NCBI RefSeq assembly: GCF_004116725.1
Contig: NZ_PDKG01000006.1
Coordinates: forward strand, 62,001-126,000
Origin: Arcobacter sp. CECT 8986
GTDB taxonomy: Bacteria; Campylobacterota; Campylobacteria; Campylobacterales; Arcobacteraceae
Length of the DNA stretch: 64,000 nt
Reading direction: 5' to 3'
Below are positions 9,172 to 16,883 of this stretch, in pieces. Positions within the stretch are counted from its first letter, which is position 1. Each line of letters opens with the position of its first letter. The notes beneath the pieces were generated by a model that made no database searches, had not been told where the DNA came from, and saw only the letters and a program-made list of their open reading frames with translations. Position numbers and translations under genes: made by a program.

Positions 9172-9528
<357 letters not shown>

Positions 9529-9597: not shown

Positions 9598-10785
9598 TTA
9601 AAATGCTCTTTTAAATTCTGGATATGCTTCAAGACCACACTCTTCTACATCTAATCCTTGTACTTCTTCATCATGGCTAGCTCTTAATGGAATAATTTTA
9701 TTTATAATAAATAATACAATATATGAAGAAACAAAAGCAAATATACCTACTACAAATATACCTTTAATTTGTCCTAATAGTGTAATACTATCTCCATTAC
9801 TTGCAAAAATACCAACTGCTAATGTTCCCCAAATTCCATTTACTAGATGAACTGATAATGCACCAACTGGATCATCTATTCTTAATCTATCAAAAAATGA
9901 TACGGCAAATACAACTAATGCTCCACCAATAGCACCAATTAATATTGGAGTATGAATATCATATAAATCAGGACCTGCAGTAATTGCAACTAAACCACCT
10001 AAAGCACCATTTAAAATCATAGTTAAATCTAATTTTTTGTATTTTAAATACATAATAATTGATACGATAATTGCACCTGATAAACCTGCTGTATTTGTAT
10101 TTAAGATAGTTAAAGCAACTGCATCTGCATTCTCTTTACTTGCAATTGAACCTACACTTCCACCATTAAATCCAAACCAACCTATCCATAAAATCAATGC
10201 ACCTAATGTAACTAATGGAATATTTGAAGCAGGGATTACTCTAATTGCTCCATCTTTTGTATATCTTCCATGTCTTGCACCAATTACTAAAATAGCAGCA
10301 AGTAAAGCCCATCCACCTGTACTATGAATAACAGTTGAACCAGCTAAATCATACATACTAAGTTCTAAAAATGTACCTTCTAAGAAATTACTTCCCCATG
10401 ATACATTTACAATCAAAGGATATATTATTGCAGCCATTACTACTGTAAATATTGTTAAAGGAATTACTTTAGCTCTTTCACTAACTCCTCCACTCATAAT
10501 ATTTACAACTTTTCCTACAAATGCCATTTGAAATAGAAATGCAGCCCATTTACTCATACTATCACTACCAAAATCACCAAATGCTATAGAATACCCAACT
10601 AATAAAAAAGCCATTGAGGCAACACAATAAATTAATGTATTGATAGTTAATACTGCAGTCACATTTTTTGTTCTTACAAGTCCTGCTTCTAACATAGCAA
10701 AACCAGGAACCATAAAAATAATTAACACCATTGCAAAGATTGCAAAAAGTGTATCAATTATATAAGAAATTGAACCTAATTCCAT
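9598..10785 (-). CDS. amtB: Ammonium transporter Amt (first copy)
   Basis: This is an 11-helix ammonium channel of 395 residues. It shows FMVPGFAMLEAGLVRTKN at the N-terminus, the first channel histidine in AGSTVIHSTGGW, and the second in LSVHLVNGIWGTLAVG. GGAGGG precedes the ATG. It forms a pair with the downstream P-II gene. Its upstream region carries the shared TGTATA-N5-TATACA dyad and a TATAAT-like box, which suggests nitrogen-dependent control. Confidence 0.95.
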   Translation of the reverse strand: MELGSISYIIDTLFAIFAMVLIIFMVPGFAMLEAGLVRTKNVTAVLTINTLIYCVASMAFLLVGYSIAFGDFGSDSMSKWAAFLFQMAFVGKVVNIMSGGVSERAKVIPLTIFTVVMAAIIYPLIVNVSWGSNFLEGTFLELSMYDLAGSTVIHSTGGWALLAAILVIGARHGRYTKDGAIRVIPASNIPLVTLGALILWIGWFGFNGGSVGSIASKENADAVALTILNTNTAGLSGAIIVSIIMYLKYKKLDLTMILNGALGGLVAITAGPDLYDIHTPILIGAIGGALVVFAVSFFDRLRIDDPVGALSVHLVNGIWGTLAVGIFASNGDSITLLGQIKGIFVVGIFAFVSSYIVLFIINKIIPLRASHDEEVQGLDVEECGLEAYPEFKRAF

Positions 10786-10822: not shown

Positions 10823-10854
10823 TAGTTTATTTCATCTATTTAAGAGTATACAAT

Positions 10855-10871
10855 TGTATATAAAATATACA
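10855..10871. promoter_or_regulatory. Dyad operator TGTATA-N5-TATACA upstream of the first amt
   Basis: A perfect 17-bp dyad with spacer TAAAA. It overlaps a 14-bp palindrome TATACAATTGTATA at 10847-10860, and the TATACAATTGT half recurs at 10866-10876. Matching dyads stand in front of the second amt gene and the divergent sensor operon. The 6-5-6 layout resembles NtrC-type sites, though the bases differ. It is a candidate site for a nitrogen regulator. Confidence 0.6.
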
Positions 10872-10903: not shown

Positions 10904-11257
<354 letters not shown>

Positions 11258-11264
11258 TTAATAA

Positions 11265-12479
11265 TTATGATCTTTTGAATTCTGGATAAGCTTCTAAACC
11301 TGTTTCGTGAATATCTAATCCATTTACTTCAGTCTCTTCATCAACTCTTAATCCCATAACCATATCAAGGATTTTCCATACAATAAATGATGATACAAAA
11401 ACAAAGATACCAATAACTACTACACCTTTTAATTGTGCGAAGAATGTAACTTCAGGGTTAAAAATACCTACAGCTAATGTTCCCCAGATACCTGCAACTA
11501 AGTGAACAGATAAAGCACCTACTGGATCGTCAATTTTTAATTTATCCCAGAAAGGAACTGCAACAACAACTAAAGCACCACCAACGATACCTTCAATAAA
11601 TGCAACTACCATTCCTAAATCAGGTCCTGCAGTACAAGAAACTAAACCAGCTAAAGCACCATTTAATACCATTGTTAAATCAACTTTTTTATAAATAAGT
11701 TGAGTTAAAATAGCAGCAGCAACAGCACCAGCAGCAGCAGCCATATTTGTATCAGCAACAACCATTGCAATTCCATCAATATCAGCTTTAGAACCTAATG
11801 CTAATTGAGAACCACCATTAAATCCGAACCATCCCATCCATAAAATGAATGTACCAAGTGTAGCTAATGTTAAGTTTGAACCTGGAATTGGTCTTACTTG
11901 TCCATCTTTACCATATTTACCTTTTCTTGCTCCTAAAATAAGTACACCAGCAAGAGCAGCCCATCCACCAACAGAGTGAACAATTGTAGAACCAGCAAAG
12001 TCAGAAAATCCTGCTATTACTCCACCTAATTCAGTTCCACCCCATGTCCAGTGACCTTGAATTGGATAAATTACACCACTTAATACTACTGTAAAGATTA
12101 AGAAAGGCCATAATTTCATTCTTTCTGCAATTGTTCCTGAAATAACTGATGCAGCAGTTGCAACAAATACTACTTGGAAAAAGAAGTCTGCCATCACAGG
12201 GTAACCCATCGCTTCATTTGTTTTACCTGATAACATTGCTCCTGTACCAATGAAAGCTGAACCATCACCATACATAAAGTTATACCCAATAAAATAGAAC
12301 ATAATACAAGAGATTGCAAATAAAGCAATATTTTTTGTTAAAACAGTTGCATTATTTTTTGTTCTAGTTAATCCAGCTTCTAACATAGCGAAACCAGCTG
12401 CCATCCACATAACAAGAATTCCTGCGAATACGAATAGGAATCCATCTAATATATATTTTACATCAGCAAAATTTTCCAT
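11265..12479 (-). CDS. amtB: Ammonium transporter Amt (second copy)
   Basis: This is a 404-residue Amt channel with WMAAGFAMLEAGLTRTKN, the channel histidines in AGSTIVHSVGGW and LSVHLVAGIWGTLAVG, and FGFNGGSQ. It is close in sequence to the first copy but carries a longer periplasmic loop (GDGSAFIGTGAMLSGKTNEA). It pairs with the following P-II gene. Its promoter region holds the same dyad and -10 spacing as the first copy, so both units are probably co-regulated. Confidence 0.95.
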   Translation of the reverse strand: MENFADVKYILDGFLFVFAGILVMWMAAGFAMLEAGLTRTKNNATVLTKNIALFAISCIMFYFIGYNFMYGDGSAFIGTGAMLSGKTNEAMGYPVMADFFFQVVFVATAASVISGTIAERMKLWPFLIFTVVLSGVIYPIQGHWTWGGTELGGVIAGFSDFAGSTIVHSVGGWAALAGVLILGARKGKYGKDGQVRPIPGSNLTLATLGTFILWMGWFGFNGGSQLALGSKADIDGIAMVVADTNMAAAAGAVAAAILTQLIYKKVDLTMVLNGALAGLVSCTAGPDLGMVVAFIEGIVGGALVVVAVPFWDKLKIDDPVGALSVHLVAGIWGTLAVGIFNPEVTFFAQLKGVVVIGIFVFVSSFIVWKILDMVMGLRVDEETEVNGLDIHETGLEAYPEFKRS

Positions 12480-12543: not shown

Positions 12544-12560
12544 TGTATATTTTTTATACA
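12544..12560. promoter_or_regulatory. Dyad operator TGTATA-N5-TATACA upstream of the second amt
   Basis: A perfect dyad with spacer TTTTT and the same arms as 10855-10871. It lies at the same distance from the predicted -10 box as the first site. Confidence 0.6.
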
Positions 12561-12639: not shown

Positions 12640-12656
12640 TGTTTATTTTTTATACA
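12640..12656. promoter_or_regulatory. Dyad operator TGTTTA-N5-TATACA upstream of the sensor operon
   Basis: A dyad with one mismatch and spacer TTTTT. Its centre is 41.5 bp upstream of the TATAAT box at 12687-12692 that serves the divergent plus-strand operon. This suggests autoregulation by the same factor that acts on the amt operons. Confidence 0.55.
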
Positions 12657-12686: not shown

Positions 12687-12692
12687 TATAAT
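12687..12692 (+). promoter_or_regulatory. Likely -10 box of the sensor/NtrC-like/glnD operon
   Basis: TATAAT in the context TTTTGATATAATAG, 22 nt upstream of the ATG at 12714, whose ribosome site is AAAGGAG. Confidence 0.6.
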
Positions 12693-12713: not shown

Positions 12714-13574
12714 ATGAGAGAGTTTTTGGATCTTTATGAAGAAAACAAAGAAAAAATTGAGTACTACTTACAAGAAAGTTTGAAAAACATGGGAAAGCTT
12801 TCTATACATAAGAACTACAATTTTATACAATTGTTTAATTTATTTCCATCTTTAGAATTAGTTTACATTGTAAATAAAGACTCTAAAGTACAAATTTCAC
12901 CAGATATGTATAAACATAAAACAGATAATAAAGGAAAAGATAAAGATAGATCACATCTTCTTTCAAAACTTGAGCTAAAAGATAATTATATTGCACTTTC
13001 AAAACCTTATATAAGTAGTGCAACAAGAAATAACTGTATTACTGTTTCTATAAAAGAAGGTGATGAGATTATTTTTTTAGATTTTAGACTTGATATATTA
13101 TTAGAAAAGTTAAACTTAATTGAATTACATAAACCTTTTCATAGTATAACAAAAGCCTTTTATTTATTTGTTGGTTTTACAATGATTGCATTAGCAACTA
13201 TTACAATTCTATTTTCATTATATGATTTTGGAATATATCTATTTAAAAATCAAGATATTAAACTTGAGCTAATGTTTAAACCAATTATTGCTTTAACTCT
13301 TGGAATTGCTATATTTGATTTGGCAAAAACTATTTTAGAACAAGAAGTTTTTTTCAAATCTTATGCAAAAAACTCAAGAGTAGAGACAAAAATGATTACA
13401 AAATTTTTAATTACAATTATAATTGCTTTATCAATTGAAGCTTTAATTGTAGTATTTAAAATTGCAATTGCAGATTACGACAAGATGGTTAATGCGCTAT
13501 ATTTAATAGCAGGTGTTTCGCTAATATTAATAGCATTATCAATTTTTATATACTTTACCAAAAAGAAAAAATAA
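12714..13574 (+). CDS. Membrane protein with N-terminal PDC/Cache-like sensor domain
   Basis: The 286-residue protein starts with a soluble helical segment, then a PDC-like domain at about residues 40-145 (LFPSLELVYIVNKDSKVQISP, then YISSATRNNCITVSIKEGDEIIFLDFRLD). Four hydrophobic segments follow at about 152-172, 195-212, 228-247 and 257-277. It has no kinase, HAMP, GGDEF or MCP output domain. I saw no N-terminal signal peptide, so the sensor domain may be cytoplasmic, which is unusual for a Cache-type domain. It is 10 nt upstream of an NtrC-like gene and in one operon with glnD, so I infer a role in nitrogen signalling; ligand and mechanism are unknown. Confidence 0.75.
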   Translation: MREFLDLYEENKEKIEYYLQESLKNMGKLSIHKNYNFIQLFNLFPSLELVYIVNKDSKVQISPDMYKHKTDNKGKDKDRSHLLSKLELKDNYIALSKPYISSATRNNCITVSIKEGDEIIFLDFRLDILLEKLNLIELHKPFHSITKAFYLFVGFTMIALATITILFSLYDFGIYLFKNQDIKLELMFKPIIALTLGIAIFDLAKTILEQEVFFKSYAKNSRVETKMITKFLITIIIALSIEALIVVFKIAIADYDKMVNALYLIAGVSLILIALSIFIYFTKKKK

Positions 13575-13584
13575 AGGAGAATAG

Positions 13585-14340
13585 ATGGAAGATTTTATTG
13601 CAGTATCACCTAATTCAAAAGAGATTTTAAATTCAGCTAAACTTTTACAATCAGTAAATATTCATGCTTTAATTTTTGGAGAAATAGGTGTTGGGAAAAA
13701 GACTTTAGCCAAGTACATTGTGCCAGAAGCAAGACTTTTTACTCCACATGAGTTACAAAGAGATATTACAGATGGCGTTTTATCACTAAATAAAGAATCA
13801 ATTGTTATTGATAAAATAGAGCATATTACAAATGTTGATTTATTACTATCTTGGATAGAAGAAAATGAGATAAGAGTAATTGCCACAACTGAAGCTTTAT
13901 CTTTAAATAACAAACTAAACGATATATTCTCTATTACTCTAAGTATTCCTCCTTTATCTCAAAGAGAAGATGATTTAAAACTATTAACACAGAAATTCTC
14001 AAATGAAGCAAGTCAAGTATTAAGAAGTGAAAAAATTGTTCCATCTAAATTAATGCTAAATACAAGTAAAAATGCCCATAGTTTAAGAAAATCAATCTAT
14101 TTTTCATACCTATTTGAAACAATTGGTGAAGATGAGATTTTGATGTTTTTAGAAAACTATATGCTTACAAATCTTGAAGGTGATAACTCATACAAAGATT
14201 TCTTATATCTATTTGAAGTACCTTTATTAAAAGCTTCAAAGAAAAAATATAAATCACAAGTTCAAATGGCTAAACATCTTGGATTAAATAGAATAACTCT
14301 AAGAAAAAAACTAGATATTCATAAAGAGTTATTATTATGA
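13585..14340 (+). CDS. NtrC-like AAA+ protein without receiver domain or GAFTGA loop, Fis-type HTH
   Basis: The 251-residue protein keeps the NtrC-family nucleotide site (GEIGVGKKTLAKYI, about residues 32-45), a Walker-B-like SIVIDKIEHI in which the usual DE is DK, and a pattern resembling sensor and lid segments (IRVIATTEALSL, LSQREDDLKLL). The GAFTGA loop that contacts sigma-54 is absent: the segment between Walker A and B is shortened. There is no receiver domain. The C-terminus QVQMAKHLGLNRITLRKKLD is a Fis-type helix-turn-helix. It probably binds DNA but cannot work as a conventional sigma-54 activator. It overlaps glnD by 4 nt (ATGA). Confidence 0.8.
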   Translation: MEDFIAVSPNSKEILNSAKLLQSVNIHALIFGEIGVGKKTLAKYIVPEARLFTPHELQRDITDGVLSLNKESIVIDKIEHITNVDLLLSWIEENEIRVIATTEALSLNNKLNDIFSITLSIPPLSQREDDLKLLTQKFSNEASQVLRSEKIVPSKLMLNTSKNAHSLRKSIYFSYLFETIGEDEILMFLENYMLTNLEGDNSYKDFLYLFEVPLLKASKKKYKSQVQMAKHLGLNRITLRKKLDIHKELLL

Positions 14341-16883
14341 TAAATACATTAAATGAAGTAAATCTAGAAGTAGAAGAGCTTATTTCAAATAATGCAAGCA
14401 ATTTTGAAATATCAAAAGTGTTTAGAAATCATATAAAAGAGTATAAAAAATCTATTGATACTATCTTAGACACAACAGGTGGAAAAGATTTTTTTGTAAA
14501 AAATACAAAACATATAGATAAATTTCTTATCTCATTATATAAATATATTTTGAGAAAATACTTCGGTTCTTATCAACCAATGAGTACTTCAATTCCTATT
14601 ACTTTAGTTGCATTGGGAAGTTATGGTAGAGAGCAACTTTGCATATATTCAGATATAGATTTGATGATACTTTATGAAGATATCAAAGGCTATAATCTTA
14701 GAGAAATCATGGAAGAGTTTATTACTTTAGCATGGGATTGTGGATTAAAACTTGGTTCTAGAGTACATGAACTAAAAGAAGTTGAAGAAGCTGTAAAAGA
14801 AGATATCACAATAAAAACTGCAATTATTGAATCAAGAGTTATTTATGGTTCTAAACATCTTTGGTTTGCTTATGAAAATACTCTAAATAATATTAGAAGA
14901 ACAGATGTAAAAGAGTTTGTTACTCAAAAATTAGAAGAGCATAAACAAAGACTTCTAAAAAATCCTTTGAAAATGGAACCAAATGTAAAAGATGGATATG
15001 GTGGTCTTAGAGAATCAAATATGATTTTTTGGATGTCATATATTCTTTATGGTGCAAAAAGTACAAAAGATTTAATAGGAAAAGAGATAAGTGAAGAGGA
15101 ACACAAAACATATAGAAGTGCATTAGAGTATATTTTCCAAATTAGAAATGCTTTACACAATATTTCTAAGAAAAAACTGGATATGGTAAATTTAGATGTA
15201 TTACCAGAACTTAGTACAAAATTAGGTTTTGTAAATACTCCTAGATATACAAAAGAGCGACAATGTATGTCAAAACTTTTAGGGGCACTTCATACTATTC
15301 ACTTCTTTTCAACTATTATTGTAAAAAAATTCACAAGAGTTTTATTAGATGATAGAGCAGATATAAAACTAATAAAAGATTCAAGACTAAAAAAAGATAT
15401 TTATCTACATGAAGGTAAAATTTATACTTCATTTAAAAGAAAACCTATTACTTTAAATGCTTTATTAAAAGAATTAATAGCTCTTCCAAGTGAAGTAAGC
15501 TCTTTTGATATGTCATATATTTACTTTGCTAGCAAAACAAAAATACCAAGAAAACAAAGTAAAGAGTTAAAGAAAAATATAAAAGCTATTTTATTTAAAG
15601 ATAACCTATATCCAATTATAAAACTTTTATACAATTCAAGCTTATTTAAAACAGTATTACCTATTACAAAAAAAATAATAAATCAACCACAATTTGATGG
15701 ATACCATCAACATCCAGTTGATATTCATTCAATTAGAACACTAAAAAAAGTAGAAAACATTGAAGATGATTTTGTAAGAAGTATTTATGAATCTTTTAAT
15801 AATACAGAAAAATCAATAGTTAAAATGGCTGCGTTACTACATGATGTAGGAAAAGGAAGAACAGCTGACCACCACATTGCAGGTGAAAAACTATTTAAAA
15901 ACTTCGCAACATCACTAGAATTAGATGAAGTTCATATTCAAACTGCGGCACATTTAATTAGATATCATAATATGATGAGTGCATACTCTAAAAATGAAGA
16001 TATCTATTCAGAAAGAATTATCTTAGCATTTACAGGACTTGTAAAAACTGAGCAAATATTAAAAATGCTTTATGTAGTTACATATGCAGATATTTCTGCT
16101 GTTGGAGAAGGAATTTATAATAGTTCTATTTCATCACTATTAAAAGAGTTATATTTACAATCTCTACCTGCTTTTGAAAATCAAGATTTAGTAAAAGAAA
16201 GCTCAAGAAGAATTGCAAAAATCAATGCAATAAAAAATCTAAAAAGATACAAAGATTTACCATATATTACAAAGAAAAAAATCTCTTATATCTCTTCTAA
16301 TCAAATTTTCTTAAGATTAAAAGCTGATGATATTTTAGATATTGCAATAAAAGCAAAAGATGTAAATAATTATATTTATAAAATCACAAATAATGAACGA
16401 TTAGTAATAAGAATCATTAGAAAAGATTCTTTAAACTTAGGTTTTTTACTTGGAAATTTAGAGTTTTTAAATATTTTTAGTATGGACATATATAAATTAT
16501 ATGATGAGAAAAAAGCTTTTGAAATCACTTTTAGTGAAAAAGTAGAAGATGATGATTTGGCATATATAAAAAATATTATAGAAAACTCTTTTGATATGAC
16601 AAAAAAACAAAAAATCAAAAAACCTATTATTAAAAAATCACAAATAGAAGCAAACTGTAATCACAGTCCATACTTAGCTTCACTTCAAATTAGAGCAAAA
16701 GATCAAAAAGGTTTATTTGCTTATGTTGCAAAAATATTTGATGATTTTAATATAGAAATAGAAAGTGCAAAACTAGCAACTACAAAAGGCTATACAAGAG
16801 ACCTTATTCTAATAGAAAAAAATGGTGAATTTTGTGGAAAACAAGAAGAGATTGTAAAATTAATCTGCCAAGAAGAAGAGTGA
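14337..16883 (+). CDS. glnD: Bifunctional P-II uridylyltransferase/uridylyl-removing enzyme GlnD
   Basis: GlnD adds UMP to the T-loop tyrosine of P-II when glutamine is low and removes it when glutamine is high. The 848 residues show the nucleotidyltransferase motif GSYGREQLCIYSDIDLM (G94, S95, D106, D108), the GlnD-specific NVKDGYGGLRE region, an HD hydrolase domain with LLHDVGKGR near residue 500, and a C-terminal ACT domain (ASLQIRAKDQKGLFAYVAK). A first ACT-like segment before it is weakly conserved. Both P-II targets are encoded next door on the opposite strand, so sensor, modifier and targets lie in one locus. Confidence 0.96.
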   Translation: MINTLNEVNLEVEELISNNASNFEISKVFRNHIKEYKKSIDTILDTTGGKDFFVKNTKHIDKFLISLYKYILRKYFGSYQPMSTSIPITLVALGSYGREQLCIYSDIDLMILYEDIKGYNLREIMEEFITLAWDCGLKLGSRVHELKEVEEAVKEDITIKTAIIESRVIYGSKHLWFAYENTLNNIRRTDVKEFVTQKLEEHKQRLLKNPLKMEPNVKDGYGGLRESNMIFWMSYILYGAKSTKDLIGKEISEEEHKTYRSALEYIFQIRNALHNISKKKLDMVNLDVLPELSTKLGFVNTPRYTKERQCMSKLLGALHTIHFFSTIIVKKFTRVLLDDRADIKLIKDSRLKKDIYLHEGKIYTSFKRKPITLNALLKELIALPSEVSSFDMSYIYFASKTKIPRKQSKELKKNIKAILFKDNLYPIIKLLYNSSLFKTVLPITKKIINQPQFDGYHQHPVDIHSIRTLKKVENIEDDFVRSIYESFNNTEKSIVKMAALLHDVGKGRTADHHIAGEKLFKNFATSLELDEVHIQTAAHLIRYHNMMSAYSKNEDIYSERIILAFTGLVKTEQILKMLYVVTYADISAVGEGIYNSSISSLLKELYLQSLPAFENQDLVKESSRRIAKINAIKNLKRYKDLPYITKKKISYISSNQIFLRLKADDILDIAIKAKDVNNYIYKITNNERLVIRIIRKDSLNLGFLLGNLEFLNIFSMDIYKLYDEKKAFEITFSEKVEDDDLAYIKNIIENSFDMTKKQKIKKPIIKKSQIEANCNHSPYLASLQIRAKDQKGLFAYVAKIFDDFNIEIESAKLATTKGYTRDLILIEKNGEFCGKQEEIVKLICQEEE

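Follow-up and report, generated by a model that had tools for sequence, protein, structure and literature searches.

What is the function of a degenerate NtrC-like protein whose gene overlaps glnD? We asked this of the product of an open reading frame at 13585..14340 (plus strand, 251 aa) of Arcobacter sp. CECT 8986, here called REG; coordinates are positions within the window, the whole 64,000-nt stretch of DNA that was analysed. In the related A. butzleri the genome lacks RpoN, and the paper describing it called the absence of NtrB, NtrC and RpoN remarkable (PMC2147049). In the literature on nitrogen control in this group we found no paper describing the REG system. Our analysis suggests, with a probability of roughly 0.78, that a degenerate NtrB/NtrC pair, in which REG is the DNA-binding member, would control nitrogen assimilation without phosphotransfer at σ70 promoters.

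Anatomy of REG and its locus

REG was found in 81 of 104 Arcobacteraceae genomes, and thus the open reading frame is not a chance one. The downstream gene glnD (PII uridylyltransferase, 14337..16883, plus strand) overlaps it by 4 bp (ATGA, 14337-14340), in agreement with the initial annotation, which had placed the two genes in one operon. The glnD product matched UTase_glnD at 4.8e-103, under the curated cut-off, and GlnD_UR_UTase above its cut-off. In the genus the REG-glnD operon opens with MEMB (12714..13574, plus strand), a predicted membrane protein that matched no Pfam or NCBIfam family and that adjoins or stays near REG at most Arcobacteraceae loci. On the minus strand lie two ammonium transporter genes that are predicted targets, amt1 (11265..12479) and amt2 (9598..10785), and the PII genes glnK1 (10904..11242) and glnK2 (9172..9510). 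In most Arcobacteraceae REG is upstream of glnD with MEMB upstream or nearby, often with divergent amt1-glnK1 and amt2-glnK2; in other genera REG is found beside amt-glnK, and glnD is not there. An Rfam search gave no match in the REG locus, nor in the amt leaders of genomes lacking REG.

The initial annotation had described an NtrC-like protein stripped of its receiver domain and its GAFTGA loop, with an intact Walker A motif, an altered Walker B motif and a Fis-type helix-turn-helix (HTH). Each of these features was recovered. By profile alignment REG matched only residues 136-465 of E. coli NtrC, so that REG begins at NtrC residue 136 and the receiver is unmatched. The P-loop GEIGVGKK (residues 32-39, 13678..13701, plus strand) is intact, and among 64 aligned Arcobacteraceae proteins G32 and G37 are invariant and K38 is present in 63. 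The Walker B motif SIVIDK (residues 72-77, 13798..13815, plus strand) is degenerate. IVIDK occupies the place of FLDE in EBPs, giving DK for DE, and in the same 64 proteins the position of the glutamate holds K, N, R, D, H or C and never E. Aligned with E. coli NtrC, REG has gaps at GAFTGA and over the REDLFHRL arginine-finger stretch. The GAFTGA loop was also deleted when REG was aligned with the NifA of its own genome, and GAFTGA was not found anywhere in the alignment of the whole family. The initial annotation suggested that REG may sense ATP or ADP directly; since the P-loop is conserved, REG may bind nucleotide, and its AAA+ domain should do so without hydrolysing it.

At the C-terminal end, the Fis-type HTH (residues 203-245, 14191..14319, plus strand; recognition helix LNRITLRKKL) matched Fis and NtrC HTH profiles as well as Fis PDB entries, and its contact residues N235, R236, T238, R240 and K241 are invariant in the 64 proteins. 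Sequence matches of REG to σ54 activator, NtrC and Fis models were weak but consistent; against PF00158 (σ54 activators) REG scored 19.7 bits, slightly under the Pfam cut-off. The structure prediction and the family alignment around the loop that had been proposed as a check were both made. An AlphaFold2 model built with 31 relatives gave a confident AAA+ and HTH fold (pLDDT 89.6), whose best structural matches were EBP AAA+ domains with Z of 16-17 (Foldseek; VIA), including NtrC4 at Z 17.1 (VIA); VpsR was also among the matches. These matches support the proposed descent of REG from a σ54 activator. REG should nevertheless be classed as neither NtrC proper, because the receiver is absent, nor a σ54 activator, because GAFTGA is absent, though it would work like a σ70 NtrC.

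Among 399 Campylobacterales genomes 357 carry a REG match; weak matches among them (E near 1e-5) probably represent FlgR or other EBPs. REG relatives group together, well apart from NifA, NtrC and TyrR (support 100/100). Beyond the Arcobacteraceae they occur in two settings: in one they accompany a 229-aa protein, c11, and frequently amt-glnK; in the other they are part of a tolQRAB-pal-slyD-fabD-mtn operon. In other Campylobacterota (L124-L157) a paralogous branch of this degenerate AAA+/Fis family was seen in a tol-pal...fabD-mtn-ttcA operon, flanked by slyD and fabD.

A 17-bp dyad upstream of nitrogen genes

The initial annotation had named REG as the best candidate to bind a shared dyad. 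A shared amt dyad as the predicted REG site stood up; the element that is supported is TGTATA-N5-TATACA, a 17-bp dyad that emerged when amt promoters from the same and from different genera were aligned and that is also found at glnA and other nitrogen genes. A 14-bp palindrome, TATACAATTGTATA (10847-10860), was considered as the shared dyad and rejected, as it is not conserved; the conserved 17-bp dyad overlaps there. The exact dyad has only three copies in the 2.65-Mb genome, upstream of amt1 (12544..12560; -35 TTTACA 12534-12529, -10 TATACT 12511-12506, minus strand), of amt2 (10855..10871; -10 TATAAT 10822-10817, minus strand) and of glnA, which encodes a type I glutamine synthetase. A copy with one mismatch, TGTTTATTTTTTATACA (12640..12656; -10 TATAAT 12687-12692), is the predicted operator of MEMB-REG-glnD and is conserved in the genus and in relatives, and nifA is preceded by a degenerate copy with 2 mismatches. 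Genome-wide, 1-mismatch dyads numbered 41 versus 42 for a reversed-pattern control, and 2-mismatch dyads within the window were not enriched above chance; thus only exact dyads were used for counting.

The 6-5-6 geometry of the dyad is that of the E. coli NtrC box, TGCACC-N5-GGTGCA, although the letters differ. The E. coli box is given in the literature as the 17-bp TGCACCAnnnTGGTGCA (PMC8743547; PMC4987338), and as a control we located sites of this 6-5-6 type in the E. coli glnALG region. As a predicted element in front of nitrogen genes, TGTATA-N5-TATACA appears to be new here.

We found that the distance from the dyad to the start of the -10 box is nearly constant. It is 32 nt at amt1 (TATACT) and amt2 (TATAAT), 31 nt at glnA (TACAAT) and nifA (TATAAT), and 30 nt at MEMB (TATAAT). 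In 84 amt promoters from genomes with REG, the offsets of 31 and 32 nt together collected 83 counts of best -10 matches, versus 1 to 6 at any other single offset, with ties counted more than once. The centre of the dyad precedes the -10 box by about 40 bp, immediately ahead of the -35 region, and with the usual -10 position this would place it near -52/-53 of the predicted start. At some amt promoters (for example amt2 in L048, L070, L071 and L074) the dyad is weaker or displaced.

This arrangement bears on whether REG activates or represses. A repressor or anti-activator could use the same dyads, its binding near -53 blocking RNA polymerase under nitrogen plenty. Such a role would have a precedent in Caulobacter NtrC, which also lacks GAFTGA and both activates and represses σ70 promoters (PMC10274813), and autorepression would fit the genomes (L061, L122 among several) in which the dyad lies close to the REG start codon. 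However, the promoters of amt1, amt2 and glnA have the dyad ahead of the -35 region with a constant 31-32 nt to the -10 box, as is typical of an activator, and the poor -35 boxes of amt2 and glnA also argue against a repressor. We therefore consider repression unlikely and favour activation by REG.

The dyad was then compared with the distribution of REG. Genomes with REG carry on average 5.19 exact dyads versus 1.14 for the reversed pattern, while those lacking REG carry 0.65 versus 0.74; by these counts exact dyads exceed background only where REG is present. Those genomes that have REG without rpoN carry a mean of 4.35. In one genus, g2, the 17 genomes with REG have 2-9 exact dyads and the 14 without it have 0-1 (Mann-Whitney p = 5e-7, the genomes being related). 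REG may have been lost there only once or a few times, so that these genomes are not independent. The amt2 promoters of g2 members lacking REG have no dyad. Several of these genomes keep glnD, which argues that regulator loss, rather than PII modification, tracks the operator.

A different regulator could own the dyad and have been lost together with REG, in which case REG would only modulate GlnD, GlnK or that regulator. The binding of REG to the dyad is itself predicted, and REG and dyad could have vanished with a third gene. Against this, the dyad excess follows REG across the Arcobacteraceae, the dyad has NtrC-box geometry and REG an NtrC/Fis HTH with an invariant recognition helix, and the dyad is present in promoters of REG itself. 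We regard a separate owner of the dyad as improbable, and binding by REG as the preferred reading.

In relatives, exact dyads were found upstream of amt genes, MEMB and REG itself, of glnA, gltB, the NADP glutamate dehydrogenase gene (gdhA) and the NirB-type nitrite reductase gene (nirB), and also of nifA, a TorF-type porin and a QH amine dehydrogenase. Most of these sites have a -10 box at 30-32 nt. Judged by gene content, this set would be the classical nitrogen-assimilation regulon.

Three genomes of a further genus, g3 (G032, G033 and G034), carry 12-21 exact dyads versus 2-9 in most other genomes, which suggests a much enlarged predicted regulon. In genus g2 (L222, L260, L263 and L265), exact dyads lie between the quinohemoprotein amine dehydrogenase gene and an apparent AraC-type regulator gene, and this suggests that amine use as a nitrogen source may be under the same control. 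Also in g2, amt1 occurs only in members with REG, and those without REG have only amt2 or no amt. In the latter group (L170-L179) a strictly conserved leader, CGTCCAGCGCTGG...CTCTAAAAGGAC, lies about 20-50 bp upstream of amt2 and ends at the Shine-Dalgarno site. It could sequester this site by pairing of GTCC with GGAC and may be a replacement control element; neither an Rfam match nor covariation supported it.

rpoN, σ54 and the putative partner protein c11

The initial annotation stated that Arcobacter genomes lack rpoN and asked that the genome be checked. This holds for A. butzleri (PMC2147049). It does not hold for Arcobacter sp. CECT 8986, where we found rpoN beside nif genes and a gene for a NifA of GAF-AAA-HTH type. 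The absence of rpoN was therefore rejected as an argument for σ70. A PF00158 search of the genome gave one strong canonical EBP, NifA. In the NifA of this group (G000:C3, L049 4384-5931; L238) GAFTDA replaces GAFTGA in the σ54 contact loop, even though no other strong canonical EBP turned up in this genome.

Across the 104 Arcobacteraceae genomes rpoN tracks nif: of the 33 genomes with rpoN, 30 carry a full-length nifH and one other a fragment of it, and we saw no full-length nifH in the genomes without rpoN. In contrast, 49 of the 81 genomes with REG have no rpoN, and thus REG does not depend on σ54. We found no σ54 element (GG-N10-GC) at the amt1 or amt2 promoters, and one upstream of nifH. 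It could be argued that in genomes with rpoN, such as that of Arcobacter sp. CECT 8986, REG is still a σ54 activator, as its fold is the fold of that class. With GAFTGA, the Walker B glutamate and the arginine finger all missing from REG, with REG present in so many rpoN-less genomes and with amt promoters of this kind, we consider this highly improbable. The predicted action of REG at σ70 promoters, which the initial annotation had proposed, appears well supported on other grounds, namely the fixed -10 spacing, the lack of σ54 sites at amt and the rpoN-less genomes.

The initial annotation missed a second degenerate protein, the NtrB-like c11, which co-occurs with REG and is encoded beside rpoD. 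Of the 104 Arcobacteraceae genomes 81 carry c11, and in 102 it is present or absent together with REG; the exceptions are G041 and G076. In each of the 21 loci checked, one in this genome and 20 elsewhere in the Arcobacteraceae, its gene follows rpoD at a distance of no more than about 10 bp, and in sister lineages it adjoins REG. The 228-aa protein is barely recognised by Pfam. Its model (pLDDT 83.9) has a PAS-like N-terminal part, an assignment that rests on weak profile matches and model topology, and a C-terminal domain of the kinase-catalytic type. The top VIA match of the latter was the E. coli NtrB catalytic domain 1r62 (Z 13.9, rmsd 2.8, 118 residues), with which other kinase catalytic domains tie as fold matches. 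By hhalign the match to E. coli NtrB was weak (P 0.004, probability 8%); it pairs YDPSIPDFKL of c11 with YDPSLPELAH of NtrB and stops at the DNGP box. The H-box helical hairpin between the PAS and catalytic domains and the ATP-lid region are absent from the model. From the predicted fold, the short sequence match and the gene context, we model c11 as NtrB-like.

Proposed mechanism and relation to known systems

On the most economical reading of these data, phosphotransfer, ATP hydrolysis and σ54 contact were lost from an NtrB/NtrC pair that kept DNA recognition and its regulon. REG, presumably paired with c11, would need neither σ54 nor a receiver and most likely no ATP hydrolysis either. A REG dimer would bind the dyad through its HTH and, positioned near -52/-53, help σ70 RNA polymerase. 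Its predicted targets are amt-glnK, glnA, gltB, gdhA and the operon that REG shares with glnD, joined by nifA in genomes that have it. PII, uridylylated by GlnD and responding to 2-oxoglutarate, is probably the signal and would act in direct contact with REG or c11, and nucleotide at the P-loop of REG may gate this signal. A more specific version, which we put forward tentatively and at somewhat less than even odds, has an NtrB remnant, cotranscribed with rpoD, relay the PII signal through direct contact with a receiver-less NtrC. The latter would recruit σ70 polymerase to the Ntr regulon and, where nif is present, stand above nifA and σ54.

Several known regulators resemble REG in part. Like REG, Vibrio VpsR is a GAFTGA-less AAA+ regulator of σ70 promoters, as is E. 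coli TyrR; unlike REG, both have full-length N-terminal sensory domains, and their regulons are other ones. The fold of c11 matches RetS-type and other atypical kinases, which use a kinase-like fold but do not pass phosphate in the normal way to a cognate receiver. RetS, however, is a large membrane hybrid, whereas c11 is a remnant of PAS and catalytic domains. E. coli NtrB/NtrC (GlnL/GlnG) matches the predicted REG and c11 system in its regulon core of glnA and glnK-amtB, in the 17-bp dyad geometry and in a partner with PAS and catalytic domains. It works by His-Asp phosphotransfer, ATP hydrolysis and σ54, for which the required residues are missing in REG and c11.

The closest parallels are the NtrC proteins of Rhodobacter capsulatus and Caulobacter. 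R. capsulatus NtrC lacks GAFTGA and acts at σ70 promoters in nitrogen control, and it is reported to need ATP binding rather than hydrolysis (as cited in PMC10274813). Caulobacter NtrC, also GAFTGA-less, controls glnBA and other σ70 genes (PMC10274813). The NtrC of R. capsulatus and other Rhodobacterales is like REG in being NtrC-derived, in lacking GAFTGA and, as we infer for REG, in using σ70 promoters, but it retains a receiver and must be phosphorylated by NtrB. Caulobacter NtrC shares the absence of GAFTGA; unlike in REG, only an eight-residue loop is deleted, and the receiver Asp and ATP hydrolysis contribute. Since both proteins keep a receiver whose phosphorylation site matters, REG would be a further step.

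Many relatives of A. butzleri would thus have an NtrBC-like pair, one too reduced for family models to detect. If this is true, a two-component system can drop both phosphorelay and ATPase yet keep its regulon and operator geometry, which would make REG and c11 a natural experiment on the parts of NtrC that are really needed, and a nitrogen regulon would be predicted for many Campylobacterota.
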